Assembly: GCA_963082975.1 (NCBI GenBank)
Contig: OY720349.1
Coordinates: 46,853,962 to 46,917,961 of the forward strand
Source of the DNA: Labia minor
Taxonomy: Eukaryota > Arthropoda > Insecta > Dermaptera > Spongiphoridae
Length of the DNA: 64,000 bases
Reading direction: 5' to 3'
In this document: piece by piece, positions 1 to 63,381 of the stretch
How positions within the stretch are numbered: the first letter of the stretch is position 1
How the letters are laid out: every line of letters begins with the position of its first letter
Translations under genes and position numbers: made by a program
The notes under the pieces: model-generated
Told to the model about the DNA's origin: nothing
What the model saw: only the letters and a program-made list of their open reading frames with translations
Databases searched by the model: none

Positions 1-263
1 TTTATTTTTACGGTCACTTTTCTCAAAAGTTGATTGAAAACTATGAATTTTGAAAAATGTCCGTGTACCAAATTTCATGATTCTAGCTCAAACCGTTTTT
101 GTGTAATCTTGTCTACATACACACATACACATACGCACACAGAGACATTTTTCTCAACCTTAGTGAAAATGATTCAGGAACCTTCAAAACGTATAAAAAC
201 ATCAATATCTCAACATCGAAAATTTTTGTAATCGCAATACTATCTCTGGCGAGATAGTAAAAA
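1..263 (-). mobile_element. Family A Helentron-like element, 5' part, reversed
   Basis: This is a reversed copy of the family A repeat, cut by the left edge of the window. Reading from its 5' end at about 263, it has the T-run, the hairpin CTATCTCGCCAGAGATAG (written reversed near 242-259), a short TG/TATG microsatellite, and the core with GAAATTTGGTAC. The part seen ends in the GTGACCGTAAAAATAAA segment that follows the core in full copies, and about 45 bases of the core are missing (compare 3236-3300). Confidence 0.75.
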
Positions 264-1310: not shown

Positions 1311-1880
1311 CTACTCTATCATCATATCTACATTGCCTGTACTATTGTCGGTTGGTGCTTCAATTGGTAATACTGATATTAATGGCTTGTGATAACTAAA
1401 ATAAGATATATATGTTCGTGATTCGATATTTTCTATATAACGTGTAAAAACAGCATCTATTGTAGTTCCAGATTTTGTTGTTGATTCCTTGGGATCGTTA
1501 TTTATAAGCAGACCAAATGTTTCTCGAAGAAAGTTGATCAACGGCAACGAATCATCAGATCCAAAATTTACATTAAAATCTCCCCCGAGAATTAGAGGGA
1601 TTTTATCTTCGCCTCGTTCAAGTGCATTAGCACCTGTGTGGCTATAAACCAGTAGTGAAAGGTGTATGAAATAAATAATATCGTCTAAATTTTGGTCGTT
1701 ATTTTTTTTCGGCATAGTGAAATCTGTGGAGTAGAGAAAAGCAGTTTTAAATGCAATAATAATTTTAAATTGATTTAGTAGTGTTAAAGTAATGTTGAGA
1801 TTCGGATAAATAACGTGAATGGTCATCGACGCACATAACTGTATGTGTTGGCGTGTGAATCGCCGACCATGTTCACACAC
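1311..1880 (-). pseudogene. Endonuclease-domain relic of a Helitron/Helentron-like element
   Basis: The C-terminal half of this minus-strand frame (roughly residues 85-175) looks like an endonuclease/exonuclease/phosphatase-type domain. It has a GGDFNVNF motif, in which D and N would be metal and catalytic residues, then TTKSGTTIDAVFTR and ISYFSYHKPLISVL, where the histidine sits at the usual end of the fold. Domains of this kind are joined to the helicase proteins of Helentron-type rolling-circle elements in arthropods. The first 70 or so residues do not look like the family, so this is probably an isolated C-terminal piece with chance upstream sequence. A non-LTR retrotransposon endonuclease is the alternative, but no reverse transcriptase follows it. 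Confidence 0.6.
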
Positions 1881-2982: not shown

Positions 2983-3535
2983 TTACTATCTCGCCAGAGA
3001 TAGTATTGCGATCACGAAAATTTTCGATGTTGAGATTTTGATGTTTTTATACTTTTTGAAGGTTCCTGAATCATTTTCACTAAGGTTGAGAAAAATGTCT
3101 GTGTGTGTGTGTGTCTGTGTGTGTGTGTGTGTGTATGTGTATGTAGGCAAGATTACGCAAAAACGGTTTGAGCTAGAATGATGAAATTTGGTACATGGAC
3201 ATTATTCAAAATTCATAGTTTTCTATCAACTTTTGAGAAATGTAGCTCAACCGGAAGAGGGTCATTACCTACAACGTTTTGATTTTTTTTCCTCTAAAGT
3301 GACCGTAAAAATAAAGATATATGTTTGATAATTTTTCACATGATTAATAATTGTATAAAACTGCTATATATAGAATTTCAGCTTGATTGATTAGCTGAAA
3401 TTACCAGAATTAATTTTTTAACACTGCAAATCTCACGCGCCAACACGTGACGTGGTGCCATCAACAAAAAGCCAAACATGCGCTGGTTTAATATTTATTA
3501 TTTATTATTTATAATTTATAATTAATTAAATTTAA
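2983..3535 (+). mobile_element. Family A Helentron-like element, 3' end lost
   Basis: The copy has an intact 5' end: T-run, then the CTATCTC/GAGATAG hairpin. After it come the ATGTCTGTGTG microsatellite, the core with GAAATTTGGTAC and CAACCGGAAGAGGG, and the conserved GACGTGGTGCCATCAAC segment. It fades out in A+T-rich DNA without the terminal GCGAGATAGT and the final hairpin. Confidence 0.8.
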
Positions 3536-3839
3536 TAATAATTTTTAAATAATATAAATAATATTTAATTATAATCTAATCAAAGAAAATAAAAGTTTGA
3601 ATCTATTTGATAGTTGATCTTTTTACATATAATTAATCTCAAATTAAATATTTTTTAATATTAAAAAAAAATAACAAATTTCATATGTATATTTATTTTT
3701 ATAAATGTTTAGGCAAATTTTGAAATTAATATATATTTAAATTCAAATTGTATTTAATTGCGATATCTACTGGACAAGGTGGAGATCTCGCCCTCTTTTG
3801 ATCATAAGTCATACTAATTTTTATTCTTTGACCCAGTAG

Positions 3840-5548: not shown

Positions 5549-6144
5549 TAAGTTGACCTGTGGCCAGGTCCGAACCGACCGACGGTTTGAAGTAAATTAA
5601 TTTCCAGCTACAGAAACAATTTCAAATAATTTTAATATATCTATTAATGTAATAAAAACAGATATAATATATATGTAAGACCAGGCTGTGACGTCATGAA
5701 TGGCTGGTTGATGTCATATAATTTTAAATCAAGAAAAAATTAATAAATATGATTTTCCCGAGGATAAAACCAATGCAAAGTGTATGATTCGTGGTGATAT
5801 ATAAAAAAATCTCCTCATGTGAAATTTGGTGTGAAAATAACCCTTTCCTTCCTATCGTCTATCGCTAATACTACCTCTTCCGGTTTCCGGATTTGCACCA
5901 AAAGTTGATCAATTCATCCCACTGATGCATTAAGTAAATATACCAAATTTCATCAAAATCGGTTGAGCCGTTCAGGCTGTACACATCTATATGGACGGAC
6001 AGACGGACAGACGGACAGACATCATGCTAAAAATACTTTTTTCTGTTTAGAAAATGCATGATTCGTGGAGATATGTAAAAATCTCCACATGTGAAATTTG
6101 GTGTGAAAACAATACCTCCCTTACTATCGTCGGTCGGTAAAAAA
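5549..6144 (-). mobile_element. Family C Helentron-like element, reversed, near complete
   Basis: In the minus-strand sense it starts with a T-run and ACCGACCGACGATAGTAAGG. It continues with two GAAATTTGG segments around a GGACAGACGGACAGAC microsatellite and with AAACCGGAAGAGG, and it has a short inverted motif around TGACGTCA. It ends with CGTCGGTCGGTTCGGACC and the hairpin GACCTGGCCACAGGTC before a T-rich flank. The terminal ACCGACCGACG and the internal CGTCGGTCGGT are inverse copies. No protein is encoded. Confidence 0.8.
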
Positions 6145-9940: not shown

Positions 9941-9946
9941 AATTAG

Positions 9947-10511
9947 CTGGAGTGTCTCCACGCGACTATCTCGCAAATTTGAATTGGATTAATTAACACA
10001 TATATTATATTTAAATTAAATTTAATTAATTATAAATTATAAATAATAAATATTAAACCAGCGTATGTTTGGCTTTTTGTTGATGGCACCACTACACGTG
10101 TTGGAGCGTGAGATTTGCAGTGTTAAAAAATTAATTCTGGTAATTTCAGCAAATCAATCAAGCTGAAATTCTATATATAGCAGTTTTATACAATTATTAA
10201 TCCTGTGAAAAATTATCAAACATATATCTTTATTTTTGCGGTCACTTTAGAGGAAAAAAAATCAAAACGTTGTTCCGGTTGAGCTACATTTCTCAAAAGT
10301 TGATAGAAAACTACGAATTTTGAATAATGCTCATGTACCAAATTTCATCATTCTAGCTCAAACCGTCTTTGCGTAATCTTGGTTACATACATACACACAC
10401 ACACACAACCTTAGTGAAAATGATTCAGGAACCTTCAAAACGTATAAAAACATCAAAATCTCAACATCGAAAATTTTCGTGATCGCAATACTATCTCTTA
10501 CAAGATAGTAA
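9947..10511 (-). mobile_element. Family A Helentron-like element, reversed, complete ends
   Basis: In the minus-strand sense both ends are present: ACTATCTTGTAAGAGATAG at the 5' end and GCGAGATAGTCGCGTGGAGA followed by CACTCCAG at the 3' end, with T-rich DNA beyond each. The core contains GAAATTTGGTACATGAGC and CAACCGGAAC. The microsatellite is short here (ACAC run at about 10391-10407). Confidence 0.85.
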
Positions 10512-13230: not shown

Positions 13231-13794
13231 CTGGAGTATCTCCACCCGACTATCTCGCAAATTTAAATTGGATTAATTAACATATATTATATTTAAATTA
13301 AATTTAATTAATTCAATTATAAATTAAGATAATAAATAATATTTAATAAACCAACGCGTTAGGCTCTTTGTTGATGGCTCCTGCTGGCGCGTAATTGCCA
13401 GTCAGCATATTAAAAAATTAATTCCGGTACTTTCAGCAATTCAATCAAGCTGAAATTCTATATATAGCAGTTTTATACAATTTTTAATAATGTGAATAAC
13501 TCTCAAATATATATCTTTATTTTTACGGTCACTTTAGAGGAAAATAAATGAAAACGAGGTAGGCTCTTCCGAAAGAGTTACATTTCTTAAAAGTTGATTG
13601 AAAACTACGAATTTTGAAAAATGCCCGTGTACCAAATTTCATGATTCTAGCTCCAACCGTTTTTGCACACACACAGAAATGTTTCTCAACCTTGTGAAAA
13701 TGACTCAAGAACTTTCAAAACGTTTAAAAACATCAAAATCTCGACATAGAAAATTTTCGTGATGGCAATACTATCCTTGGTGAGATAGTAAAAA
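13231..13794 (-). mobile_element. Family A Helentron-like element, reversed, older copy
   Basis: Both ends are present in the minus-strand sense: a T-run with ACTATCTC at about 13790-13780, and GCGAGATAGTCGGGTGGAGA then TACTCCAG at the other end. The copy has many substitutions, its microsatellite has shrunk to a few CA units (about 13667-13675), and it has lost part of the segment after the core. This suggests it is older than the copies at 57345 and 62762. Confidence 0.8.
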
Positions 13795-17037: not shown

Positions 17038-17650
17038 TTCGGGAGTGTCCTCCCCTAGACTTTCCCGCATATAAATAGGTAATTAGATTATTATTATTAT
17101 TATGTTTTAACAATAAAAATAAACAAACTAATTAATTTAAATTATAAAGTAAAATGGTTTAACACTATTATATATATTTATAATTTACACCTAACGCTAC
17201 TTGTATAGGTAAAATGTCACTTCCGGTAGTCAGATCATGATGAAATTTGGTATCTGAATTTTTTTCATATTTTTAAATCGATATACAAAATATGAAGCAA
17301 ATATCTCGAAGCAAACTGGTACTTTACTTGAAAGGTAAACGCAACCAGTGTAGGTAAAGTACCACTTCCGGTTAACCGATTTTGACGAAATTTTGGTAGA
17401 AATCTACAAACTGTGAATAATATCGGTGTACCAAATTTCGAAGTCCTAGCTTGATTAGTTTTTGAGTAAATTTGCTTACAGACATTACATACATACATAC
17501 ATACATACATACACACACAGACATAATTCGAAAAATGGTATTTTCCGACTCAGGGAGGTCTAAAACGTCAAGATCTATCGAAATCTCGAAGTCGAAATTT
17601 TTGACGATTCCAATACTTCCCTTATGCGAAGTATGCGGGAAAGTAAAAAA
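17038..17650 (-). mobile_element. Family B Helentron-like element, reversed, complete ends
   Basis: In the minus-strand sense it begins with a T-run and ACTTTCCCGCATACTTCGCA, then ATGTCTGTGTG and a short TATG run. The core has GAAATTTGGTACACCGATA and TTAACCGGAAGTGG. It ends with GCGGGAAAGTCTAGGGGAGG and CACTCCCG before a T-run. GGGAG and CTCCC form the final hairpin around GACA. Unlike the copy at 59633-60945, it carries no family C insert. Confidence 0.85.
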
Positions 17651-21330: not shown

Positions 21331-21378
21331 TATTTTTTTACTATCTCGCCAGTCTGTCTGTCTCTCTCTCTCTCTCTC

Positions 21379-21419
<41 letters not shown>

Positions 21420-21750
21420 CATGAAATTTGGTACACGGGCACTATTCAAAATTCGTAGTTTCCTATCAACTTTTGAGAAATGTAGCTCAACCGGAAGAGG
21501 GTCATTGCCTACAACGTTTTGATTTTTTTTTTCCTCTAAAGTGACCGTAAAAATAAAAATATATGGTTGATAGTTTTTCACTTGATTAAAAATTGTATAA
21601 AACTGCTATATATAGAATTTCAGCTAGATTGAATCGCTGAAAGTACCGGAATTAATTTTTTTACTCGTTGGCTGGCAATCACGCGCCAACACGTGACGTG
21701 GTGCCATCAAAAAGAGCCAAACATGCGCTGATTTAATAAATATTATTTAT
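21331..21750 (+). mobile_element. Family A Helentron-like element with shortened 5' arm
   Basis: It starts with the T-run and ACTATCTCGCCAG, but then jumps straight into a CT/TG microsatellite (21352-21416) and the core. The 120 or so bases that normally lie between the 5' hairpin and the microsatellite are missing. The core with GAAATTTGGTACACGGGC, CAACCGGAAGAGGG and the GACGTGGTGCCATCAA segment are intact. The terminal hairpin is not seen. Confidence 0.75.
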
Positions 21751-21754
21751 AAAT

Positions 21755-22200
21755 ATATATATATATAAGTCAATTATTATTATTTCTCCTTTTGTTTTTT
21801 TATTTATTTCTCTGTAAACTGGTGTCACCTTACATTTTTCATGGCATCAAAATATGGTTTTAATTTTAAAATATTAAGGGTGATAATAGGTATAAGTATT
21901 GTAATTTATGGTTACAAATAAATGCCAAAAGTGGTTATCGCATTCAATGTCTTATATAAGTTAAAAGAGAGCTTCAAGGTAAAGGTTCACATCACAATCT
22001 GATTGATAAAGAAAATTTCAAGGATTCACTTTCACATAATAAAATAATTTATAGATCATTTTTTTTTTATTAAACAAATAGCCTTAACAAGATAAAATAA
22101 ATTTCAAGAAAAAAATATTTGGTTATCTGTATCAAAGTTTTAATAATATTATATTTAGTTTATTTACTTTTCTGAAATTAAAAAGATTAAAAAGGAAAAT
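21755..22200. other. A+T-rich intergenic DNA
   Basis: Nothing identifiable. Confidence 0.45.
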
Positions 22201-22319
22201 TTTGTGATAGATAAGTGGTTTTTCTTTTTACTTTGCCTTCTTTCTTGATGAGTGTTGAAATCATCACAATTCTTTTTGTTTTTTTTTTTTTTGTTGAAGA
22301 TTTTTTGAAAGGTAACGAA

Positions 22320-23540: not shown

Positions 23541-23543
23541 TAA

Positions 23544-24310: not shown

Positions 24311-24644
24311 TCTTTCTTTATTACCTTCAAGACAAATTTGAAGATCAAAATTTGAAAAAGTTTATCCGGATCTATTGAGTCATACGTATGTTTTACTTAA
24401 GTCTGCAAATAATTAGTGAACAGAAATATTGAATTCGCGGTTTTTTTCTAATATCTGTCATAATGAAAATATAAGTATTGTATATGTTATAATAAAAATA
24501 GAGTATAATATTTCTTGATCATTTCATTTTGATATTTTATTTTCATTGCTTGATTTTTATTTAATATTTTTAATTATAATAAAATTTGAGAAAATGCAAA
24601 GTTAGAGACTTGAGACAATTTATAAAAATTCATGGTATAAAACA

Positions 24645-25600: not shown

Positions 25601-25604
25601 TATA

Positions 25605-26240: not shown

Positions 26241-26244
26241 AAAT

Positions 26245-26873
26245 AAGTTGACCTGTGGTCAGGTCCAAACCGACCGACGGTTTGAAATAAATTAATTTCC
26301 AGCTACAGAAATAATTTCAAATAATTTTAATATATCTATTAATGGAATAAAAAACAGATATGCATAGAACATAAATATTTTTAATTTTATTTTATTTATA
26401 ATATATATCTAAGACCAGGCTGTGACGTCATGAAGGGCTGGATGACGTCATATAATTTTAAATTAAGAAAAAACTAATAAAGATGATTTTTCTCGAGTAT
26501 AAAACCAATACAAAGTGAATGATTCGTGATGATATGTAAAAAATCTCCCCATGTGAAATTTGGTATGAAAATAACCCTTCCCTTCCTATCGTCGATCGCT
26601 AATACTACCACTTCCGGTTTCTGGATTTGCACCAAAAGTTGATCAATTCATCCCACTGATGCATTAAGTAAATATACCAAATTTCATCAAAATCCGTTCA
26701 GCCGTTCAGGCTGTACACATCTATACGGACAGACGGACGGACGGACAGACATCATGCTAAAAATACTTTTTTCTGTTAAGAAAATGCATGATTCGTGGAG
26801 ATATGTAAAAATCTCCACATGTGAAATTTGGTGTGAAAACAATACTCCCTTACTATCGTCGGTCGGTAAAAAG
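26245..26873 (-). mobile_element. Family C Helentron-like element, reversed, complete ends
   Basis: In the minus-strand sense it starts at the T-run and ACCGACCGACGATAGTAAGG (26873) and ends with CGTCGGTCGGTTTGGACCTG and ACCACAGGTC (26245 side). It has two CACCAAATTTCACATG-type segments, the GACAGACGGACGGACGGACA microsatellite, and TGACGTCATGAAGG near the 3' end. It is nearly colinear with 5549-6144. Confidence 0.85.
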
Positions 26874-27053
26874 AATGAAAATAATGGTTAACATTTTCAT
26901 TCTCGGTAAATAAATAAAAAAAATGTTTTAAAATATGTAAAATGCTCAGGAAATGATGTTTTAAAATTAATGTGTTTTTAACTAAGTTACCTTTTAATTT
27001 GTTCGGGTTCAATAAATATTTTTAATTTATTCTTAGAAACTGTCTTAAATTAA
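26874..27053 (-). repeat. 180-base flank shared with 62079-62257
   Basis: Reversed, this sequence matches the bases just upstream of the family C copy at 62258, including AAGACAGTTTCTAAGAATAA, CCTGAGCATTTTACATATTT and TTTACCGAGAATGAAA. In both places it leads straight into the C element's 5' end, so flank and element were copied together. Confidence 0.75.
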
Positions 27054-27059
27054 TTCGTA

Positions 27060-28140
27060 ATATGTAATTTATAATGTAAGACAAAATTTGGAAAACGATT
27101 CTACTTGTTGCATTGTTTTTCTACTGATAGTTTAATGATTTCTCCTTTCAACGGTTCTCTTTATTTATTTATTAAAAGAAAAGAATTTCCAATATTACAA
27201 CTTTTTTTCAGACTAGAAAAAGCAACGACGCTAGGTCGTAGATTTTCTACTGGTAAACAGCTGAGAATGATCATCCCTCAGTCTGGCGCTATTTATATCA
27301 ATCATGAAAAGTGAGCGACACCTCCAATTTGAGCATTGTTCGAATTTAGAGCAGTAATCATTTGGGCGTTGCATGGATGGGCAGGGTGTTGGCCTTTTGT
27401 ACCAAAGACACACATAAATATTCCCCAGAATCAGTTCCTTGGCCTTTTCAACGTTTCATTAAGTTTCGACTGAAAGAATCTAATGCCCCAGGGGGAACAT
27501 CTATCTCTGTTAATTAACTCATTTTTCCCATTTTAAATAACGTTTTTCCCCCAATGAACACAATTTATAGATAATTTTTATACATAAAATTCTCTAATTG
27601 AGTGGGTGCGGAGGTAATTTTCGTAAGTTGCTTTCATCTTCAAAGGAAATACTAAAAATACTTTACAACTTCCTTCCTTTAAATATTTTCATTCATTCTT
27701 GTAATGACTCAATTTCTTTAATTTTTTTTATTTTTATTCATTAATATGTTACCTATTATTTTATTCTTTTTAATGGGCAACTATTAAATTTATTATAATT
27801 AATGATTTTATAGTATCTTATATAAAAAATAATATTAATAATTATGAATATTTGAATAGCATTTAATAGGTATATAAAATTTAATTAATCTTATACATAT
27901 ATATATATAAGTTTTATAGATAAAAATTACTTAGAATTTAAAATAAATATTTTACATAACTTTTCAATTCATGTTTTGGAGAATTTAAATATATCTTTAG
28001 AATTTTTCGTGCCCAAGAATATTGTAAGGTTATTTTTTCATTCAATCATAATTAAGTTTGTTCATTTATCCTATATTTGATATCTACATATCTTAGAATT
28101 TTGTTTAATTATAAATAACACCAAAGAACAAAATATTACA
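27060..28140. other. Intergenic DNA with a G+C-richer patch
   Basis: A patch at about 27200-27520 has an acceptor-like TTTTTTTCAG (27203-27212), then AGAAAAAGCAACGACGCTAG and a GTAAAC donor-like site 40 bases on. No protein could be recognised. The remainder is A+T-rich. Confidence 0.35.
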
Positions 28141-28145
28141 ACTTA

Positions 28146-28661
28146 CAGGTGGGCTGAAAAGTTCGTAGGCTGACACATTCATGGCGCCACTAGAATCAAA
28201 AATCCATATTTTTTAGTTAGCCCTAGCCTTCAAAAGACGCATGTATAAATTTGACAGCTGGTTCACAATTAGTATCGGAGTTATAGAATTTCTTGTTGTT
28301 AACTTTTGTTAATTTGAAAAAATGGAAAAAAAGTAATTTCGTGTGTTGATAAAGCATTTCGTTTCGAATTGGTTCCGCATCCACTGTATTCTCCAGATCT
28401 GGCCCAGCGACATTTTTTTTGTTCTCAGGCCTTAAAAGGATGCTCGCTGGGCGGAAATTTTGCTCCGATGAAGAGGTGATCGCCGAAACTGAAGCCTATT
28501 TTGAGGCTAAAGACAAATCATATTATAAAAAATGGTATCGAAAAATTATAAGACCACTATAATCGCTGTAACGTCCTTGAAGGAATCTATATTTAATAAT
28601 AAAAACAAATTAACTCAAAAATATTTTTTTATGCTAGCCTATGAACTTTTCAGCCCACCTG
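28146..28661 (+). mobile_element. Internally deleted mariner element (about 516 bp)
   Basis: The termini CAGGTGGGCTGAAAAGTTC and its inverse at the right end are perfect over 19 bases. One end is followed by TA as expected for Tc1/mariner; the other has a one-base difference (TT). Full-length mariners are about 1.3 kb, so more than half is gone. The deletion joins the start of the transposase gene to its C-terminal region near 28360. Confidence 0.85.
28322..28594 (+). pseudogene. Mariner transposase remnant, N- and C-terminal pieces joined
   Basis: ATGGAAAAAAAGTAATTTCG (28322) gives MEKK, a stop, then FRVLIKH: the usual mariner start with its fifth codon turned into a stop. After about 35 bases the sequence switches to ELVPHPLYSPDL, the segment that carries the third catalytic aspartate (D34D family). 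Then follow the LKG.LGG region and AETEAYFEAKDKSYYK, ending near CNVLEGIYI and a stop. The first two catalytic aspartates and the DNA-binding domains are deleted, and there are several frame changes. Confidence 0.75.
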
Positions 28662-28664
28662 TTA

Positions 28665-30528
28665 TTTTGGTTAAAACTACATATTAATTTATAAATTAAA
28701 ATTGAAATTTAAAATTCGTAAACATGGCTAAAAAATAAAATTTTTCTTCTAAAAAGAAAAGAAGACGTTCGATTGTTCTATCAGTGAATATCTGAAGCCT
28801 AAGTTTTATAAAATTTTTATATATTTATAAGAGAATATTTATTTTACTCTAGTTTAGTTGCTTCGGTTACCCACCCTTGACACGCGATTTTTCCATCGAA
28901 ACTAATATTTGGTTAGAGCATGTTATAATTGTATAATATGATAAATGGATAATTAAAGTAAATCGTATTAATTTTCATTAAGCTATTTTTAATAGTTTTT
29001 CATAATTTCTAAAACTTTTTATTTGAAATAACTCAAATATATATTATTAATTATTTTATTCATTTTATTAGAATTAATATATATATATATATATTTATAG
29101 TTATAAATATATAATAGAGAAATACGATAGATATTGAATTTATAGGGGCTTATCAATAAATAAATAGGTCCAGAACACCTTTCGCCTATAAATAATATAA
29201 TCTAAGAGAGTGTGAGGGACTCATTTAAGATGATAAGATCATGCAACCTTGGAAAGGAAGCAGACCCCGGCCTAAATTGAATCGAATATTCATGATTTAG
29301 AAATTATTTTACTCGATCAGGGCTAAAAAGATTTACTAAAACTTTATTAATAATATATTCGCGTATCAATGATAAAACCATGTCGAATAATAAAAATAAA
29401 AATGAACTTGGGAAAAAAAAAGTTGAAATATTTTTAAAACAAAACTAGTATAAGAATTTTTCAAATTAAATAAATTTTCCTTATTTTTATTTTATGTGGA
29501 TTTTAAATAAAAACAAGTTTTAAATATATATATATATATATAAAGCTGCATGTTTTCAATTTAAAAAATAAAAGTTAAAAACTAAGAACGAGAAAATTTA
29601 CATGTCATTTACATAAATATAATTTTTGTAGGCGGGTAGACTTTCTAATTCGATCGTTATTATCTCTTTTGTCCCTTTCTTTGTTTTCCCCCCTCTGTCT
29701 TTCTTATCAATAAATGTAATTTTAATAAATAACAAAATTATTTCTTGATTTTTACTATCATATTTGTTAATAAAATTTATGATTAATTTATATGAAAGGG
29801 ACATTTATAATTTGATAAACAATAAATGAATTAAATACATATATAGCTTAAAATTGACGTTTTGCATCATATCTGATTTCGTCTTTTGACTATTCATCTG
29901 AAATGGTGCCTATTTATGTTATAATGATAAGAGAAGAATGTGTTTGTTCCAATAGAATAAATAAATTTATTTTATACTATTAAATCAACGAAGAACTTTT
30001 TTTGTTATTCCAGCATTTTAAATTTAAATTGATTAAGTATACAAAGAATAATCAGATATTTTTGTCAAGAATAGCATAATTATTAACTTATAAATATAAT
30101 AATATTTATACATTATTTATATTAAATAAAGAGTATATATAAACAGTGAAAATGGTGATTAAATGATTTAATTTTTTTTTAATACTTTTTTTTAATCACA
30201 GGTTTTTTATTTATTACCAAAAAATGTTCAATTCTTTATATTGTGAAAATATTATTGTATTAAATATGTGCATATATATATAATTTTTACAAAGGTATGT
30301 TTAAATTTGATTGGTCTTTATTTAATAAATAAACGTAGAAGCATTTCATGACTAAGAATCGGTTTCGGTAATTAATAAATCGCACCTCTATCTAAATGTT
30401 AATTTGATTAATTTTTCTTGTATGTCTGGGAATGCATGTCAATAAATGAATTAAATATGTAATTATAATTTGGATACATTGAATATGACATTATCATAAC
30501 TTCATAAAATTAATAAATAGAAAATTAA

Positions 30529-30562
<34 letters not shown>

Positions 30563-30870
30563 CGAAATAAACAAAAGGGAAAAAACGAGTTTTTAATTAT
30601 TCAGGATTACAAGTTGAATGCAAACTGTTATTTATTTATTTTATACCATTATCAAAGTATTAAATGATAAATAAAAATAAATCCTTTGAAGAAATTATTT
30701 GTTATTCAAACTATTTATATATTATTTATTAACTAATTTTTTGGGACTTTAACATTGAATAATTAAGAAATGTAAATTATAGGACCAGTATATGAGAGGT
30801 TGTTAAGGTATGTAATCATGGGTTGGAGAAGGATAGGATTATTTTCATTATAATATTTTTTTATACACTT
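28665..30870. other. A+T-rich intergenic DNA
   Basis: It holds an (AT)n run at about 30530-30559 and a slightly more complex patch at about 29150-29290 (GCAGACCCCGGCC). No gene supported. Confidence 0.4.
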
Positions 30871-30879
30871 TTACTTAAC

Positions 30880-31015
30880 TCACTCTGTCCGGTTGTACGC
30901 GGGTTGTCCGCGGCATTTTATAATCGATATTTCAACAACTTCCCGTCATTCAATCAACTTGAAATTTTGCATACGCGCTTGCTCCTGCTAATAATACACG
31001 AATCAATTGAAAAAT
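30880..31015. repeat. Diverged fragment with a family A/B/C-like phrase
   Basis: TTGAAATTTTGCATACGC at 30959-30976 resembles the GAAATTTGGTA phrase of the Helentron-like families. It lies next to CGCGGGTTGTCCGCGG (30899-30914), which can fold as a hairpin (CCGCGG/CGCGG). The remains are too short to assign. Confidence 0.25.
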
Positions 31016-31151
31016 CCACTGAATTATTTATCTATTAGTGGTAATTAATTAACTAAACTTTCATATGCGGAATATGGAATAGTTCATTATTTCAATCATA
31101 GATGGCGATAGCAGTTCTAGAGGCGCTGAATACGACTAAAAAGTATAAAAC

Positions 31152-31411
31152 AAATTTAAGTAAAAAGAAATCTTTTTAAAAAATACACTTTACTTAAAAT
31201 TGCACTAAAAAGTAAAAAATAAAATCACTTTAAAGTGTATGCGCTCAAATTATAATAAGACCGTAAAACATTTAACACCGTAAAACATTTGCTTCCATTT
31301 GGTGTTATTATAATTTGAGCGCATACACTTTAAAGTGATTTTATTTTTTACTTTTTAGTGCAATTTTAAGTAAAGTGTATTTTTTAAAAAGATTTCTTTT
31401 TACTTAAATTT
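31152..31411. repeat. Perfect 107 bp inverted repeat with 46-base loop
   Basis: The bases 31152-31258 are the exact reverse complement of 31305-31411; I compared them block by block and found no mismatch. The 46-base loop (31259-31304) contains CCGTAAAACATTT twice, at 31261 and 31278. The arms include the self-complementary CACTTTAAAGTG. Beyond the arms the match fades. It could be a young palindromic transposable element (foldback/MITE type) or a hairpin-RNA-producing locus; no target duplication is clear. Confidence 0.9.
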
Positions 31412-31554
31412 TTATAACTTTCATTTGATATAAAAATATATATATATATATAAATATCATATGATATATATATATATACTGTAAATTTTATTGTATTTGT
31501 TTTAATGATCAAATTTTCATGATATTTTATTGTATATCTTCTATTTATTTTTAT

Positions 31555-31605
31555 CTCTAAAGCTCTAAGAACTCAAAAGTTCTTGGCCGCCATCTTGTAT
31601 AATTG
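31555..31605 (-). pseudogene. RTE-type retrotransposon tail, tiny relic
   Basis: The reversed sequence contains GGCGGCCAAGAACTTTTGAG, matching the AAKNYRV coding tail of the other copies, and an eroded TTAGAGCTTTAGAGAT in place of the stop and GATA tail. Only about 50 bases survive. Confidence 0.5.
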
Positions 31606-31799
31606 AATAAAAATTTTTCTTATTCAATCTTCAATATCAATAAATAAGAAAAATTTCATATGAAAATAAAAAAATAATTTAAGACTAATTAAAAGATGAA
31701 AAGAAATATAAAAAAAAAAAACTTTTAAGGTGAATATCTATTAACTAATAATTAATTTATTGGAAATCAGATGGAGGATAATTAAAAATAATTTTCCAA

Positions 31800-32150
31800 T
31801 GTAAAAATCGTGAAGGTCACATGAATCCTAAACGAAGAATCCCTTTGTGGAAAAGCTCGGCGAATCACGAAAGGAATTTTTTTTATGTATGGGGAGAAAA
31901 GAAAAGAAAAGAATGGGCGGGAAAGGAATCAGGCAGAGAAGAGAGGAGAGAAATTGAAAGGACGAGTAGAAAGGAGAGGCTGAGAGAAGGGCAGCAGAGG
32001 CTACAAAAGTGAAGATGACGCCGTCCAGGCTACGGCAGCAGGAATTATCAACCGCAATCGAAATGATTATCAATGACATGGCATTCTTGTATTATATGAA
32101 AGAGGAGAGTGAAGGAAGGCTATGTGCAGAAAACAGATGCAGCGTTTGAA
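31800..32150. other. Purine-rich, G+C-richer island
   Basis: A purine-rich strand (GAGAGGAGAGAAATTGAAAG) and later GATGACGCCGTCCAGG distinguish this from its surroundings. Open frames on both strands reflect the purine bias. It may be untranslated exon or promoter DNA; no product is proposed. Confidence 0.3.
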
Positions 32151-32749
32151 TAAAATTAATTAAAACTCTTTGATCTAACCACATAAGAATTGCAGAGAAA
32201 TCAGTTTTAATTTATCTCTTCATGATATTCGTGTAGTCTACCAATGGAAGTGAAAAGGACTGAACCATTCTTTCAATATGGTACAAAAAAACAAATCCAA
32301 TATTATCGATGAATCGAAATTTTAAATTAGATGTTATAATTGATATATTGTTAATAACTACAGAATTGTAAATAATTATAATTTTATTTATTAAAAAAAT
32401 TAATATATAATGCTGATTAAAAAGGTAACCAATTAACTATATAGTTCCATTAAAATGTTTCAATATGGTCATCGATATTGACATCGGTATCTTGCATTTC
32501 AAATTATATATCTTGTATGAAAGTTTTTGAAATAAGTCCAAATTACTATATTTTCTTATAATAAGAATATACGAGATGGTGTACTAAAAGTATTCCAAAA
32601 TGTACATAAACATGTTTGAATTTGAAATTAAAATTTTCTATAATATTTTGAACATTAATTTATAAGTTTTAAATAATTGGATCCGTTTTGAAATCATTTT
32701 ATTCCTATTTCTATAAGAAGGCAGGAAATTGGTTCCTAAATATTTTTTG

Positions 32750-33015
32750 AAGGCACCCCAGGGTGGGATGCAACAGCGTTAGCTCACATTCTCGTGGTCT
32801 CGGGTTCAAGCCCCTAGCAAGGAAATTTCTTTAGCTGGAGTCTATAAAACGGATTCAATCCAGCCTCCGGGATCAAAATTAAGAAGCTACTTGATAAAAA
32901 ATAGCGCCTCCGATGAAGAAAATCAAGGTAGAGGTTGATAGGATCCGTTTTACTGATCATAGGACGCCTAATTGATATTATCAATAGGTGCCGTCCTTGC
33001 GTAGAAAAGTCAGAG
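32750..33015 (+). mobile_element. Possible tRNA-derived SINE
   Basis: GGTTCAAGCCC at 32813-32823 is a good RNA polymerase III B box. About 35-50 bases upstream lies a tRNA-like left part (GCAACAGCGTTAGCTCA, 32770-32786) where a degenerate A box would sit. A unique body of about 190 bases follows, ending in A+T-rich DNA. No second copy is in the window, so the repeat nature cannot be confirmed here. A decayed tRNA gene is the alternative. Confidence 0.4.
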
Positions 33016-33019
33016 GTAT

Positions 33020-35195
33020 TTTTTATAAGAAAGGCTTTTATATTTCTTATATTTCACTATTACTATCCAACATATTTTGTTTATTTATTATTTATTCTTG
33101 AAAATACAGTTTATGATAAATAAATTGTATTTATCGCATTATTAGTGAGATTTTATTTGAATATGTTATATGTTGTTAAAGAAACCAAAATGATGTTAAT
33201 TTCTTCCCAGAGTACATTATTGTTTAATTTATCTATATACATATAGAATGTATAAAATATAACATTGTTATATAATAATATCAGAGTAAATTAATTAATG
33301 AAAATATAAGAGGATTTACATTTTCAAATAAATTATTCTTAAATAAATATATCCAGTGTTAAAAGTTAACTCTAGATTAATCTATTTTCAGAAAAAATAG
33401 ATAATGTTTGGTAAAAATAAATTTAATTTTTGAGGTTTCTCTGAAATTGAATTCTCAAAATGTTATCAATGTAAGCACCTGAATGATATTGGAAGTCTTC
33501 TCTATTATCACAGAAACATGTAAGTTATATATATATATATATATATTAGAAAGAGTGAAACTAGGGAGGGAACATTTACAGAAATAGAATCAACTTTTTA
33601 TAATTCTTATTTATGTTATCAAGATGGATTCATAAAAAGATTAAAAAGATCAAAGATTTGCATGCAATGTCCAAACAAATTATCTCCATTAGATAAAAGT
33701 GAAAATGATTCTAATTCTAAAGTGAAGTTGAAAGAAAACTTATTTTAATATAACTTTTCACATTTGTATTTGTATTTGAAGTCCACAAAATGATAGATTA
33801 CTTTTTGTTTCTATGTTTATTTAAATTAATAAATAAACTATTATTGACAATAAAAATACTCCATTGTGAAGAAATAATTATTGAAATTCTAAAATATCCA
33901 AAATTGAAAAGATCAAAGTGTTTATAATGTTTAAATATAGTTAGAGCTTTAATTTAATATGCAACGTGTTTAAATTTAAGGATTAAGAAACTGAAGATTT
34001 TTTTGATTAAGAAAAAGAGGCAAAGAGTTTTTGAAATAAAATATCTTGTATTTAAATTATATATCAGTCTACTTTGATTTAAAATTAAATTTATTTTAGT
34101 TTGATAGAAATAAATATTCAAGTATTCTTTTGCATTTTGTTATAAAATGAATATTTTCTATTAAAATTTAATAAAAAATAAATTTTTATATATCTAATAA
34201 GTTTCTAGAAAAGTTGGGAATAAATTTACTAGTGATGTACTATTTATTATAAATTTATATTTATATGACTATGTATACAATACGATATAAATTTATAAAA
34301 TTTGCAAATTGAAATGTCATTGATAAAAGAATATTTATTAAATACATTTAGAATATTGATAATATCATAAAAATAGAATGGGTATTTGTGAAATTATATC
34401 TATAATATATTTAATTTATATTGATTATGATTTGAATAAAATTGGTATTTATGTAACTACGATAGGAATATAGTTTCACTTTTCGATATTGAAATAAAAT
34501 TGAGATGTAACAAAAAATTAATTTAGTATGAGAAATATGAATGTACAAAAATATTATTAAAATTAAATATTTTAACCCGCATAAAAAAACAAATTTCCTT
34601 ATTTTATTAATGTTTTAATCGTATTAATATAATAGTAAACAGTATAAATTAAAAAAAAATATTTTAAGAATATATTTTATTTAAGAGGTAGCAAATTTTC
34701 ATTATTCATTCAAATTATTATAAAAATTTAAATCAATTTATTTTATTTGATATCAAATTGTTAGTACATTAATAGTGATGAAGAATAAAAACATTGTACA
34801 AAAAATATCACAAAATATTTGTATCTTTAGAAATCTAGTTGTTTTTAGAGATAATGAAAGAAAATTAATCAACTAAAGAATTGTTCATGTGATTTAATTC
34901 AAAAGATTTTATTTTATGTTTAAATATGTTGACTATTTTATTGAAGTTGTAATAGATACCATATAAAGTTTAAAAATAAAAATAATTAAAATAAATAAAA
35001 TCAAATTAATTAATGAATATTTAATTTAAGTTAATAAGAGCATCTGCAAAATAGCAAATTATAAATTTTAATTACAATGTATAAGATTTACTAATTATAT
35101 TATAAACTTAAGTTAAAAAAGCAAGATAGCAATGAACAAAAATAAAGATTACTGTAATAAATATTTGTTTAATTTTAAGAGTTAAAATATAAATT
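33020..35195. other. A+T-rich intergenic DNA
   Basis: Over 2 kb of very A+T-rich DNA with an (AT)n run at about 33528-33546. No gene or identifiable repeat. Confidence 0.45.
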
Positions 35196-35199: not shown

Positions 35200-35782
35200 T
35201 TTTACTATCACGAAAATTTTCGATGTTGAGATTTTGATGTTTTTATTCGGTTTGAAGGTTTCTGAATCATTTTCACTAAGGTTGAGAAAAATGTCTGTCT
35301 CTGTGTGTGTGTATGTATGTAAACAAGATTACGAAAAAACGGTTTGAGCTAGAATGATGAAATTTGGTACATGGGCATTATTCAAAATTCATAGTTTTCT
35401 ATCAATTTTTGAGAAATGTAGCTCAACCGGAAGAGGGTCATTACCTACAACGTTTTGATTTTTTTCTTCTTCTAAAGTGACCGTAAAAATAAAGATAAAT
35501 GTTTGATAATTTTTCACATGATTAATAATTGTATAAAACTGCTATATATAGAATTTCAGCTTGATTGAATACTTGCTGAAAGTACCAGAATTAATTTTTT
35601 TACTCGTTGGCTGGCAATCACGCGCCAACACGTGACGTGGTGCCATCAACAAACACATGCGCTGGTTTAATAAATATTATTTATTAATTTTAATTTATAA
35701 TTAATTAAATTTAATTTAAATATAATATATGTGTAAATTAATCCAATTCAAATTGCGAAATAGTCGAGTGGAGACACTCCAG
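35200..35782 (+). mobile_element. Family A Helentron-like element lacking the 5' hairpin
   Basis: The 5' end reads T-run, ACTAT, then directly CACGAAAATTTTCGATG: the 23 or so bases holding the hairpin and the first part of the arm are missing. Core, GACGTGGTGCCATCAAC segment and 3' end (GCGAAATAGTCGAGTGGAGA then CACTCCAG before a T-run) are present. Loss of the 5' hairpin with an intact 3' hairpin makes it a useful comparison for what the ends do. Confidence 0.82.
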
Positions 35783-48436: not shown

Positions 48437-49350
48437 TTCATTAGAACACATTTTGTAATTAATATTGTGAAATCTGCGAGAAACAACGTTACCCGGATCA
48501 GCTTGGCAAATATCAAAACGTAACTTCAAGTTATATTTGGTTTCTGGACTTGGAAACAAAAATGAGTATTTGTCATCGTTGCCATATGCATTTGAAGATT
48601 ACAAAGGTTCAATGTCCATCAAAGGCGTACTAGAATTGTAAGCGACCCTATGACAACCCGGGTGTATTTCAAATTTTGATTGAACCTGAAAATGACTCTT
48701 GATGTGATGCATTTTTTATGAATGTTCTCAAAATTGAAGGACAATACGGGAAATATGGATTTAAACATTATTCGGTCTCGATATTTTCAAAGTTAGTAAG
48801 AAATTGCCTAACATGCTACCACGATCCAGAGAACACAAGGACTTTGTTTCAGCCATCTAGACTCTGAAGAACTTGAATAAGTCAGAAGACTATGCAATTT
48901 CACGGAATCACATATTTGCAGTACTCGGATGGGCTAAATGCAAATAATCCACTGTACAAGAACATAACAGTGAATCATTTTGAAGATTTCCATACAACAT
49001 CAAATTGGCCTTGTGAATGGCGCCATTGGCAACATTACGGAAATTGGTCACATTTCCGTCGCGATCAGATGTATGACAAAGACATTCAATTTGCTCGCAT
49101 TGACTTTGGCAGATATAGAATGCATTTAATTGAACCGAGATCAATCTGTTCAATTTCCAGCACTCCGTATGACTAATGGTGTCTTTGATTTTACATTGGG
49201 CTTGCACAGCACATAAAATGCAAGGCTGTACTGAAGTACTGTCGTTCATCTTGAAAGTGAAAACTTTGAAAAAGTCCAGGTTTGCATTAAGCACATAAAA
49301 GACACCTTCTAAGGAGAAGGCTATAGAGGAAATGGACAAAATGCTCTAAG
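48437..49350 (+). pseudogene. Pif1/Helitron-type helicase remnant
   Basis: Several frames together show late helicase sequence. NGAIGNITEIGHI begins at 49016, matching the VNGA.G.V region. RIDFGRYRMHLIEPRSI lies at about 49100-49146. WACTAHKMQGCTE at 49197-49235 is the motif that reads ASTVHKMQG in active Pif1 helicases, and AIEEMDKML follows near the end (49321-49347). Between 48437 and 48900 there are only scattered pieces (CHRCHMHLKI; HDPENTRTL). Multiple stops and frame changes make it inactive. No Rep nuclease motif was seen. Together with 47909-48436 it looks like one Helitron/Helentron gene with its middle deleted. Confidence 0.6.
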
Positions 49351-56375: not shown

Positions 56376-56380
56376 CAAGT

Positions 56381-56454
56381 GGCCCATTAGCTCAGTTGGT
56401 TAGAGCGTCGTGCTAATAACGCGAAGGTCGTGGGTTCGATCCCCCCATGGGCCA
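56381..56454 (+). tRNA. tRNA-Ile (anticodon AAT)
   Basis: The 74 nt cloverleaf has a seven-pair acceptor stem (GGCCCAT/ATGGGCC), a D stem GCTC/GAGC, an anticodon stem TCGTG/CGCGA with loop CTAATAA (anticodon AAT), and the T loop TTCGATC. The discriminator is A and no CCA is encoded. The A box AGCTCAGTTGG and B box GGTTCGATCCC are intact. The T stem GTGGG/CCCCC has one mismatched pair (T opposite C). Confidence 0.95.
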
Positions 56455-56456
56455 AT

Positions 56457-57341: not shown

Positions 57342-57979
57342 TAATTTTTACTATCTCGCCAGAGATAGTATTGCGATCATGAAAATTTTCGATGTTGAGA
57401 TTTTGATGTTTTTATACGTTTTGAAGGTTCCTGAATCATTTTCACTAAGGTTGAGAAAAATGTCTGTGTGTGTGTATGTGTGTGTGTATGTGTGTATGTG
57501 TGTGTGTATGTATGTAGGCAAGATTACGCAAAAACGGTTTGAGCTAGAATGATGAAATTTGGTACATGGACATTATTCAAAATTCATAGTTTTCTATCAA
57601 CTTTTGAGAAATGTAGCTCAACCGGAAGAGGGTCATTACCTACAACGTTTTGATTTTTTTTCCTCTAAAGTGACCGTAAAAATAAAGATATATGTTTGAT
57701 AATTTTTCACATGATTAATAATTATATAAAACTGCTATATATAGAATTTCAGCTTGATTGATTCGCTGAAATTACCAGAATTAATTTTTTAACACTGAAA
57801 ATCTCACGCGTCAACACGTGACGTGGTGCCATCAACAAAAAGCCAAACATGCGCTGGTTTAATATTTATTATTTATTATTTATAATTTATAATTAATTAA
57901 ATTTAATTTAAATATAATATATTATGTTATTTAATCCAATTCAAATTGCGAGATAGTCGAGTGGAGACACTCCAGCTAA
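57342..57979 (+). mobile_element. Family A Helentron-like element, complete reference copy
   Basis: This is the clearest copy. It starts with a T-run, then the hairpin CTATCTC-GCCA-GAGATAG, a 90-base arm, and ATGTCTG leading to a TG/TATG microsatellite (57462-57514). The core runs from GAAATTTGGTACATGGAC to CAACCGGAAGAGGG. After it come GTGACCGTAAAAATAAAG and GACGTGGTGCCATCAAC. It ends with GCGAGATAGT (inverse of the 5' ACTATCTCGC), the hairpin TGGAG-ACA-CTCCA, and GCTAA before a T-run. No protein is encoded. This is the layout of non-autonomous Helentrons (HINE). Confidence 0.85.
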
Positions 57980-57984
57980 TTTCT

Positions 57985-59594: not shown

Positions 59595-59772
59595 TCCATG
59601 TTGAATAAGGCATCTTAAATTCTTAACACTCCTTTTTTTACTTTCCCGCATACTTCGTATAAGGGAAGTATTGGAATCGTCAAAAATTTCGACTTCGAGA
59701 TTTCGATAGATCTTGACGTTTTAGACCTCCCTGAGTCGGAAAATACCATTTTTCGAATTATGTCTGTGTGTG

Positions 59773-59886
59773 TGTATGTATGTATGTATGTATGTATGTA
59801 TGTATGTATGTATGTATGTATGTATGTATGTATGTATGTATGTATGTATGTATGTATGTATGTATGTATGTATGTATGTATGTATG

Positions 59887-59916
<30 letters not shown>
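59773..59916 (+). repeat. (TATG)n microsatellite, about 35 units
   Basis: Uninterrupted TATG repeat inside the family B element, at the position that holds a short TG/TATG run in other copies (the B copy at 17038 has only about seven units). Open frames across it on both strands are artefacts of the repeat. Confidence 0.95.
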
Positions 59917-59917
<1 letters not shown>

Positions 59918-60213
59918 TGTCTGTAAGCAAATTTACTCAAAAACTAATCAAGCTAGGACTTCGAAATTTGGTACACCGATATTATTCACAGTTTGTAGAT
60001 TTCTATCAAAATTTCGTCAAAATCGGTTAACCGGAAGTGGTACTTTACCTACACTGGTTGCGTTTACCTTTCAAGTAAAGTACCAGTTTGCTTCGAGATA
60101 TTTGCTTCATATTTTGTATATAGATTTAAAAATATGAAAAAAATTCAGATACCAAATTTCATCATGATCTGACTACCGGAAGTGACATTTTACCTATACA
60201 AGTAGCGTTTCCA

Positions 60214-60727
60214 TTTTACCGACCGACGATAGTAAGGGAGGTATTGTTTTCACACCAAATTTCACCTGTGGATATTTTTAGGTATTTTTATCTCCACGAA
60301 TCATGCATTTTCTTAACAGAAAAAAGTATTTTTAGCATGATGTCTGTCCGTCCGTCCTTCCGTATAGATGTGTACAGCTTGAACGGCTCAACGGATTTTG
60401 ATGAAATTTGGTATATTTACTTAATGCATCAGTATGATGAATGGATCAACTTTTGGTGCAAATCCGGAAACCGGAAGTGCTAGTATTGCCGATCGAAGAG
60501 AGGAAGTGAAGGGTTATTTTCATATCAAATTTTACGTGAGGACATATCTCCACGTGTTATGCACTTTGTATTGGTTTTATCCTCGAGAAAAATCATCTTC
60601 ATTAGTTTTTTCTTAATTTAAAATTATATGACGTCACCCAGCACTTCATGACGTCATAGCCAGTCCTTATATATTATAAATAAAATAAAATTAAAAATAT
60701 TTATATTATATCCATATCTGTTTTTTT
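60214..60727 (+). mobile_element. Family C element without 3' end, inside family B
   Basis: It begins with TTTTACCGACCGACGATAGT and includes the GTCCGTCCGTCCTTCCGT microsatellite, GAAATTTGGTATATTTAC, AACCGGAAGTGC and the TGACGTCA region. It breaks off at CATATCTGTTTTTTTT without the CGGTCGG motif and final hairpin. The bases that follow (TCAGTTAACCGGAAGTAGCA) look like B-type sequence again. Confidence 0.78.
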
Positions 60728-60764
60728 TACATTTAAAATATCAGTTAACCGGAAGTAGCACTTT

Positions 60765-60801
<37 letters not shown>

Positions 60802-61476
60802 GTTACCAAATTTCAAATTTGACACCAATAAACTAATACGAACTGGCTCTTTATCAATACCAAGTTTACACATTCTAAATATTCATTCACAACTCTTAAT
60901 ACCTATTTATATGCGGGAAAGTCTAGGGGAGGACACTCCCGCTTATTAAAATATAAAATAGAGGCAGAGAAAGAGTTTCAAATTATATTCGAATAGTCTA
61001 TATATTATTAATATCATTATTTTTTTTCTGAATTTAATACCAAATTGATTTTGAAAATTTTCTATTCTTTATGCATATAATTGTTTACATTTGTTAAAAT
61101 TTAAAAAAATTCAAATATTCTAATTTTTAAATTTATATACAATTTAATATTATTGTTTATTAATATCATATCAAAAAAAGAGAAATTATTAAAAATTAAA
61201 AATAAAAAAAAGAAACCTTTTAATTAAAAATTAGAAGAGAATACAATAATTTTGATTTAAAACAAATTTAAAAAAAAAATACTCAATTTAAAAAAGACAA
61301 ATATTTTAAACATCTCATTTATATCAATTTTCTAAAAAATCATATTTTAATTTTATATAACCAAGATATCATTTTTGCACGTAAAATATAGTAGTAATTA
61401 ATATAATTGAAATAAAAACAAAAATAATATAATTTAATCATTTTAATTGATGTTTTGAAAATATTTTTGTAATCTG

Positions 61477-62078
61477 TTTTTACCGACCGACGATGGTAAG
61501 GGAGGAAGTTTTCACATCAATTTTCACATGTGGAGATTTTTACATATCTCCACGAATCATGCATTTTATTAACAGAAAAAAGTATTTTTAGCATGATGTC
61601 TGTCCGTCCGTCCGTCTGTCCGTATAGATGTGTACAGCCTGAACGGCTGAACGGATTTTGATGAAATTTGGTATATTTACTTAATGCATCAGTGGGATGA
61701 ATTGATCAACTTTTGGTGCAAATCCGGAAACCGGAAGTGGTAGTATTAGCGATCGACGATAGGAAGGGAAGGGTTATTTTCATACCAAATTTCACATGAG
61801 GAGATTTTTTACATATCATCACGAATCATTCACTTTGTATTGGTTTTATACTCGAGAAAAATCATCTTTATTAGTTTTTTCTTAATTTAAAATTATATGA
61901 CGTCATCCAGCCCTTCATGACGTCACAGCCTGGTCTTAGATATATATTATAAATAAAATAAAATTAAAAATATTTATGTTCTATGCATATCTGTTTTTTA
62001 TTCCATTAATAGATATATTAAAATTATTTGAAATTGTTTCTGTAGCTGGAAATTAATTTATTTCAAACCGTTTAAGAC
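61477..62078 (+). mobile_element. Family C Helentron-like element, last bases lost
   Basis: Complete from T-run and ACCGACCGACGATGGTAAGG, through the GTCCGTCCGTCCGTCTGTCC microsatellite and GAAACCGGAAGTGG, to TTTCAAACCG. There it runs into the 180-base flank (AAGACAGTTTC) instead of the expected CGGTCGGTT and hairpin. Confidence 0.8.
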
Positions 62079-62257: not shown

Positions 62258-62765
62258 TTTTTACCGACCGACGATAGTAAGGGAGGTATTGTTTTCACAC
62301 CAAATTTCACATGTGGAGATTTTTACATATCTCCACGAATCATGCATTTTCTTAACAGAAAAAAGTATTTTTAGCATGATGTCTGTCCGTGCGTCCGTCA
62401 GTCCGTCCGTCCGCCTGTCCGTTCGTATAGATGTGTACAGCTTGAACGGCTCAACGGATTTTGATAAAATTTGGTATATTTACTTAATGCATCAGTATGA
62501 TGAATTGATCAAACCGGAAGTGGTAGTATTACCGATCGACGATAGGAAGAGAAGGGTTATTTTCACACCAAATTTCAAATGAGGAGATTTTTTTATATCA
62601 CTTTGTTTTGGTTTTATCCTCTTGAAAAATCATCTTCATTAGTTTTTTCTTAATTGAAAATTATATGACGTCAGTCAGCCCTTCATGACGTCCCAGCCAG
62701 CGCCTCCATAGATATTATAAATAAAATAAAATTAAAAATATTTATGTTATATCCATATCTGTTTT
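62258..62765 (+). mobile_element. Family C element cut by family A
   Basis: Starts with TTTTTACCGACCGACGATAG after the 180-base flank shared with 26874-27053. The microsatellite is irregular (GTCCGTGCGTCCGTCAGTCC), and the phrase before AACCGGAAGTGG has lost about 20 bases. It stops in CATATCTGTTTTTT, where the family A element begins. The C remainder is not found beyond A. Confidence 0.78.
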
Positions 62766-62882
62766 TTACTATCTCGTAAGAGATAGTATTGCGATCACGA
62801 AAATTTTCGATGTCGAGATTTTGATGTTTTTATACGTTTTAAAGGTTCCTGAATCATTTTCACTAAGGTTGAGAAAAATGTC

Positions 62883-62915
<33 letters not shown>

Positions 62916-63381
62916 ATGTATGTAACCAAGATTACGCAAAAACGGTTTGAGCTAGAATGATGAAATTTGGTACATGAGCATTATTCAAAATTCGTAGTTT
63001 TCTATCAACTTTTGAGAAATGTAGCTCAACCGGAAGAGGGTCATTACCTACAACGTTTTGATTTTTTTTCCTCTAAAGTGACCGTAAAAATAAAGATATA
63101 TGTTTGATAATTTTTCACATGATTAATAATTGTATAAAACTGCTATATATAGAATTTCAGCTTGATTGATTCGCTGAAATTACCAGAATTAATTTTTTAA
63201 CACTGCAATTCTCACGCACCAACATGTGACGTGGTGCCATAAACAAAAAGCCTAACATGCGCTGGTTTAATATTTATTATTTATAATTTATAATTAATTA
63301 AATTTAATTTAAATATAATATATTATGTTATTTAATCCAATTCAAATTTGCGAGATAGTCGAGTGGAGACACTCCAGCTAA
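62762..63381 (+). mobile_element. Family A Helentron-like element, complete
   Basis: Both ends are intact: T-run, hairpin CTATCTC-GTAA-GAGATAG, ATGTCTG with a TG/TATG microsatellite (62878-62922), the core, and GCGAGATAGTCGAGTGGAGA then CACTCCAGCTAA before TTTT. It is very close to 57342-57979 and begins inside the T-run of the preceding family C copy. Confidence 0.85.

Follow-up and report, generated by a model that had tools for sequence, protein, structure and literature searches.

Three HINE families of Labia minor and a full-length Helentron that carries the ends of one of them

HINEs are non-coding derivatives of Helentrons, the endonuclease-bearing rolling-circle transposons. Their plan, in the excerpted text of Thomas et al. 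2014 (PMC4067079), comprises subterminal inverted repeats (subTIRs), a microsatellite, a 3' stem-loop, a TT target, and a target site left unmodified. According to the same excerpts, DINE-1/INE-1 of Drosophila combines these features with T-rich insertion sites and very high copy number; its subTIRs are 13 bp long, with an inverted repeat (IR) next to the 5' copy. In the mite Metaseiulus occidentalis, HINE-Mo elements are deletion derivatives that share both ends with Helentron-Mo, which encodes Rep, helicase, and endonuclease. Mite HINE subTIRs are described there as 12-15 bp and palindromic, and the mite families as lacking an IR of DINE-1 type (PMC4067079, excerpts).

The AT-rich genome of Labia minor hosts three short, repeated, non-coding families, A, B, and C, which are new families of this known class. 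They resemble DINE-1 in their subTIRs, microsatellite, and 3' stem-loop, in a T-rich target left unmodified (at the A and C sites compared), and, above all in A, in very high copy number; family A has the 5' IR as well; like HINE-Mo, it also shares both ends with a full-length element. The subTIRs measure 10 bp in A, 13 bp in B (ACTTTCCCGCATA), and 11 bp in C. The match to the published plan is good, though the A and C repeats are shorter than those in the published excerpts. Unlike DINE-1 as described there, family C has no convincing 5' IR, and three families occur with three Helentron lineages in one genome.

The window, a stretch of 64,000 nucleotides (C6:46853962-46917961) with 26% G+C, was compared with an assembly of 604,477,936 bases in 71 contigs. 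A first-pass annotation had read the three families as non-autonomous Helentrons of the HINE/DINE type; every motif it quoted is present as quoted, and a blastn map of the window bears out its copy numbers (eight A, two B, and five C). Each family does have the full plan, but the exact 5' motif, its inverse, and the hairpin occur together in only one A, two B, and two C copies. A plan scan (T4; a 10-mer with at least 4 G/C; its exact inverse 350-1600 bp further on; a GC-rich hairpin just after) found five places in the window (A, 57350; B, 17059 and 59640; C, 5574 and 26269), against none in 50 dinucleotide-preserving shuffles. The window also holds a tRNA-Ile (AAT) gene at 56380-56455 on the plus strand, with an Rfam match too. 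The focal A copy is laid out as follows.

57350..57979, plus strand: HINE family A, focal copy (blastn map, genome matches, plan scan)
57345..57349, plus strand: T-run of five (T5), the 5' boundary of the copy (from the sequence)
57350..57359, plus strand: family A 5' subTIR, ACTATCTCGC (from the sequence)
57350..57369, plus strand: 5' inverted repeat ACTATCTC-GCCA-GAGATAGT, an IR of DINE-1 type, its 5' half nested in the subTIR
57460..57515, plus strand: microsatellite after ATGTCTGT, a TG/TATG run (from the sequence)
57948..57957, plus strand: 3' subTIR GCGAGATAGT, the exact inverse of the A 5' motif (from the sequence)
57962..57974, plus strand: 3' hairpin TGGAG-ACA-CTCCA, then GCTAATTT (from the sequence)
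57975..57981, plus strand: 3' tail GCTAATT (tail tally)

These boundaries recur. Fetched A copies aligned by their ends start with a T-run followed by ACTATCTCGC and finish with TGGAGACACTCCA-GCTAATT. T5 or T6 precedes 39 of 41 A 5' ends in the window and fetched loci, 30 of the 41 being best matches to a query that itself includes the T-run. GCTAATT directly follows 39 of 43 A 3' hairpins in the window and all fetched loci, a tally in which 30 loci were likewise chosen as best matches and one (L001) repeats the window copy. As DNA, the A 5' IR folds far better than chance (z -5.5; 0/200 shuffles as good); the folded A 3' stretch is no better than shuffles (z -1.06; 33/200 as good). The window has seven other A copies.

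1..258, minus strand: 5' end of a HINE A truncated by the window edge (motifs, blastn map)
2985..3536, plus strand: HINE A, 3' end lost (blastn map)
9943..10509, minus strand: HINE A (motifs, blastn map)
13231..13789, minus strand: HINE A, diverged, 77% (motifs, blastn map)
21340..21776, plus strand: HINE A, internally deleted, 3' end lost (motifs, blastn map)
35207..35782, plus strand: HINE A, 5' motif lost (motifs, blastn map)
62768..63381, plus strand: HINE A, directly after a truncated C copy at its T-run (blastn map)

The last of these is a complete A copy that directly abuts the end of a C copy truncated at CTGTTTTTT; the pair spans 62263-63381, and the flank beyond it is non-C. No other such junction turned up in the window and fetched loci. 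Either one element nested in the other and part was lost afterwards, or the pair is a chimera that transposed using the 5' end of C and the 3' end of A.

Families B and C are represented by seven copies.

17041..17644, minus strand: HINE family B, complete (motifs, blastn map, plan scan)
59640..60940, plus strand: HINE family B, both ends present, interrupted by C (blastn map, plan scan)
5555..6138, minus strand: HINE family C, complete (motifs, blastn map, plan scan)
26250..26867, minus strand: HINE family C, complete (blastn map, plan scan)
60218..60674, plus strand: HINE C inside B, 3' end lost (blastn map)
61482..62071, plus strand: HINE C, 3' end lost inside the subTIR (blastn map)
62263..62719, plus strand: HINE C, 3' end lost at the T-run (blastn map)

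The earlier copy counts therefore include incomplete elements: the C copies at 60218, 61482, and 62263 have no 3' end, one A copy runs off the edge of the window, and the B copy at 59640-60940, both of whose ends are present, is interrupted by the C copy at 60218. In all three families a run of short microsatellite units follows ATGTCTGT in the 5' half, as in DINE-1, and a palindrome stands near the 3' end (B, GGGAG-GACA-CTCCC; C, GACCTG-GCCA-CAGGTC). The hairpins drawn in the first-pass annotation exist as palindromes in every family, and C folds as drawn (3' stretch, z -3.07); the B 3' stretch also gives a good fold (z -2.77), but one in which, at minimum energy, the 3' arm of the hairpin is paired with the subTIR instead. 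At the 5' end, the IR fold is weak in B (z -2.1) and unconvincing in C (z -0.41). Most C copies start with a T-run followed by ACCGACCGACG and finish with GACCTGGCCACAGGTC-AACTTATT; the exact 5' motif is absent from 3 of 30 C loci and the exact 3' motif from 2 of 30. The commonest 3' tails are GCTAATT in A, GCTTATT in B, and AACTTATT in C. Beyond the A and C ends, nested cases apart, the flanks vary from copy to copy.

Genome-wide searches show how far the families have spread. The 27-bp A 3' end has 16,503 exact occurrences and, with up to two mismatches, 34,150; the 28-bp B 3' end, with up to two mismatches, has 3,557. The A and B strings read backwards, as a control, match nowhere in the genome. 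The earlier suggestion that the families shape much of this genome is fair for A and weaker for B. The full-length B query yielded only 85 first-look candidates, of which 40 were scored (identity 91-100%); many of the B 3' ends may accordingly terminate elements whose interior differs. With the focal A query, for which 40 of 1441 first-look candidates were scored, 40 of 41 listed matches cover 635-638 of its 638 bases at a rounded 100%. Over 625 bp, all 30 fetched A copies are identical. Since these were selected for being the best matches, the identity describes a young subfamily rather than the whole family, and it points to a very recent burst of one A subfamily. Of 3121 candidates for full-length C, 40 were scored; the query's own place excepted, their identity to the query is 89-93%. 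The A 5' end was also sought in viral contigs, and none was found there. A long run of A ends on the plus strand only, over C1:2.6-5.4 Mb, had suggested replication-directed insertion; the idea was rejected when the reverse-complement pattern gave the missing strand in the same interval, the bias being a listing artefact.

Comparison of filled sites with paralogous empty ones, a check proposed in the first-pass annotation, was carried out for A and C and bears out insertion into T-runs, where bases other than T are not duplicated; one C site is not clean. Six filled C sites were compared, five of them clean. In two cases of C inserted into C (L033 and L047), the empty site reads AAATAC-T6-CTGTTAAG and the filled site AAATAC-T6[C]TT-CTGTTAAG. 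These two may be copies of one nested event; at both, and at L059, C copies lie in the same T-run of antisense C copies. At L043 an empty T5 compares with a filled T5[C]TT (paralogue 86% identical). At L035 an empty T6 compares with a filled T5[C]TTT (paralogue about 80% identical; a second paralogue has TTTTAT). L044 has T8 in three empty paralogues and T10 in one, versus a filled T7[C]TT (89-94%). The sixth site, L058 (73-78%), where C has entered A, is likewise a T6 run, but extra bases on its right side keep the T count from being clean. One A insertion into a repeat (L019) was examined in the same way: of 1286 first-look candidates for its joined flanks, 40 were scored and all 40 match at 84-91%, and among 12 aligned paralogues of the filled T5[A]TTTT site, three have T5, three T7, five T8, and one an interrupted run. 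At the clean sites, then, no non-T base is duplicated, and the gain is 1-2 Ts for C and 1-4 for A. The extra Ts fit either a TT carried by the element or a TT duplication, an ambiguity that Thomas et al. 2014 also met (PMC4067079, excerpts).

A full-length counterpart bearing both A ends is present in the same genome. This A Helentron occupies 12.2 kb in one orientation at C1:47862604-47874782 (locus L062, extended by L066). Its 5' end, T5 followed by ACTATCTCGCCAGAGATAG, corresponds to A 1-516 at 96.3%; A 307-543 is present again at 92.4%; and the last 44 bp of A recur at 100%, 1.2 kb beyond the reading frame. The young A copies differ by about 4% from its 5' part, so this Helentron is not their direct parent. 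It was reached through a genome search with Helitron_like_N (PF14214), which gave 104 matches with all 126 candidates scored; five loci with long frames were fetched. The A Helentron frame runs for 2181 aa without a stop and encodes a Rep domain (PF14214, E 1.3e-23) with VEFQMRGSPHEH (HUH, with the GSPH signature) and YVLKY (two tyrosines), followed by a PIF1 helicase (PF05970, E 1.9e-31; GSAGVGKS). GSPH is one Helentron mark, as against GLPH in Helitrons, in the excerpted text of Thomas et al. (PMC4067079). The AP-like endonuclease, fused C-terminally to Rep and helicase at aa 1843-1928, is called from its GDFN box and its position, its PF14529 match (E 0.0013) lying below the Pfam cut-off. 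The mite Helentron of the same excerpts has a separate RPA ORF; judged by frame length, no other frame above 167 aa was seen in the A Helentron. A protein search of the genome, with 22 of 1836 candidates scored, found no second full-length unbroken copy: each of the closest relatives among those 22 (C1:44.69-44.70 Mb, C60, and C10:37.19 Mb) is either partial or interrupted by stops. Within the A Helentron, a C-type segment with a C 5' end and no C 3' end spans positions 1891 to about 4005; it lies between two copies of a duplicated stretch that resembles an internal empty site.

Other Rep frames were less closely connected with the families. L061 (1652 aa) and L064 (2039 aa), considered as partners, were rejected: both frames are of the canonical type, with GLPH, and end soon after the helicase, and L061 has no matching pair of ends, only A-derived sequence, partly inverted, after its frame. 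Six open frames, five with 1652 aa and one with 1651 aa (C9:43365333, C9:45506044, C10:14925745, C1:82181971, C5:81088381, and C9:43358460), share one Helitron_like_N score; the one fetched, L061, has GLPH, and together they are possibly a young Helitron family of canonical type. L063 and L065 have GSPH, but Pfam finds no endonuclease in their frames, and neither L065 nor the examined part of L063 showed an end of A, B, or C. Contig C63 (25,575 bases) combines Helentron-like frames about 38% identical to the A Helentron with GC-rich repetitive reading frames, and is possibly foreign DNA. The window itself retains two decayed traces of such coding elements.

1368..1595, minus strand: decayed fragment of a Helentron-type endonuclease, with 37% identity to that of the A Helentron (tblastn E 5e-8); Exo_endo_phos_2 below cut-off (E 0.006)
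48445..49343, plus strand: decayed fragments of a Rep/helicase element like L063 (tblastn E 2e-17), whose own frame shows no endonuclease in Pfam

Partners for B and C are less complete. A decayed frame with 57-60% identity to the A Helentron (C1:44701595-44705853) has B 4-542 upstream of it at 95.6%. Another decayed frame (C1:55787452-55798474), with 40-51% identity in two pieces, has C 1-481 upstream of it at 91%. Both frames contain stops. The stretches fetched near them (L067, L082-L084), and those beside two further frames (L068, L069), contained no B or C 3' end, so that the pairing of B and C with those Helentrons is likely rather than closed; each 5' end may instead be a lone insertion.

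That the B- and C-linked frames carry stops leaves room for the idea that one enzyme, from the A Helentron with the only unbroken frame of this kind found, now moves all three families, B and C having once had their own. The ends of A and B are indeed alike (ACTATCTCGC and ACTTTCCCGC; GACACTCC in both hairpins; tails GCTAATT and GCTTATT). Those of C differ in the 5' motif (ACCGACCGACG), the hairpin (GACCTG-GCCA-CAGGTC), and the tail (AACTTATT); the 5' end of each family precedes its own Helentron lineage; and the scored C copies stand at 89-93% to their query versus 100% in the A set. A single enzyme is a tentative proposal, and on balance a doubtful one. Two readings that would place the families outside the Helentrons fare far worse. 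Derivation from canonical Helitrons, which insert between A and T and end in CTRR, could appeal to the GLPH Rep frames also present in the genome (L061, L064), but it is very improbable: insertion is into T-runs, subTIRs are present, the commonest 3' tails are GCTAATT, GCTTATT, and AACTTATT instead of CTRR, and the A-type protein, with GSPH and a C-terminal endonuclease, contradicts it for A. MITEs, derived from a cut-and-paste DNA transposon that has terminal inverted repeats and leaves target-site duplications (TSDs), would likewise be short, AT-rich, non-coding, and abundant, with an inverted motif near both ends, but here the repeats are subterminal and asymmetric, the 3' copy precedes a hairpin and tail, the empty sites show no TSD beyond Ts, and the full-length A element encodes Rep, helicase, and endonuclease, which contradicts this reading for A and makes it scarcely credible overall.

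The three families are almost certainly HINEs, as the first-pass annotation had proposed; the plan of their ends, the empty sites, and the full-length A counterpart all agree on this. This suggests a model in which the HINEs supply ends only and the Helentron protein would act on them in trans. Rep would nick at the 5' subTIR and its fold, the PIF1 helicase would peel off one strand, and the 3' subTIR and hairpin would mark the stop of copying. The endonuclease would open the target within a T-run, a role proposed by Thomas et al. (PMC4067079, excerpts).

The C-terminus of the A Helentron holds a further feature. Its last 190 aa match Peptidase_C48 (Ulp1, PF02902) along just 39 residues (E 6.4e-4), with a score that misses the cut-off by 0.7 bits; with the whole protein as query, Peptidase_C48 is not listed at E 0.05. 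SENP8 (E 0.0036) is the best of seven matches to this tail at a loose limit of 10, and the alignment includes the stretches GHW, (F)DS, and QNNYDCG, which we take to be the His, Asp, and Gln/Cys boxes of Ulp1/SENP-like proteases. The tail lies at L062:1595-2164 (minus strand) on C1, fused after the endonuclease. The C-type Helentron (L067:1-798) ends instead in an OTU domain (PF02338, E 2.4e-9, above cut-off). Some Helentrons carry OTU cysteine proteases in the excerpted text of PMC4067079; the C-type Helentron does likewise, and the A Helentron has its weak Ulp1-like tail in that place. Excerpts of a second source (PMC2836005) place Ulp1 in Mutator and Ginger1 and OTU in some Helitrons. Ginger1, like these Helentrons, has an OTU or Ulp1 protease at the C-terminus of its transposase, but differs in being a cut-and-paste DDE element with an unrelated enzyme (PMC2836005, excerpts). 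A search confined to open-access literature found no work joining "Helentron" with "Ulp1", which is weak evidence of absence; "Helitron" with "peptidase C48" returned only works on maize and disease. The chances seem evenly poised that the A Helentron represents a new architecture: Rep, PIF1 helicase, and endonuclease with a C-terminal Ulp1/SENP-like cysteine protease (of de-SUMOylase/de-NEDDylase type) where a relative in this genome has OTU, one surviving intact master feeding 16,500-34,000 HINE ends.

Together, these results provide a matched set in one chromosome-scale genome: at least 40 A copies at a rounded 100%, exact 3' ends by the thousand, empty sites, and a full-length element that appears intact and has the same ends. 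This set offers a natural donor, enzyme, and target for questions about Helentrons: which strand is cut, how Ts are gained, and whether enzymes discriminate between families. Should the Ulp1-like tail prove real and active, the transposons with that class of protease would include rolling-circle elements, and an OTU-to-Ulp1 swap like that of Ginger1 would suggest that both have to remove ubiquitin-like tags when they transpose.
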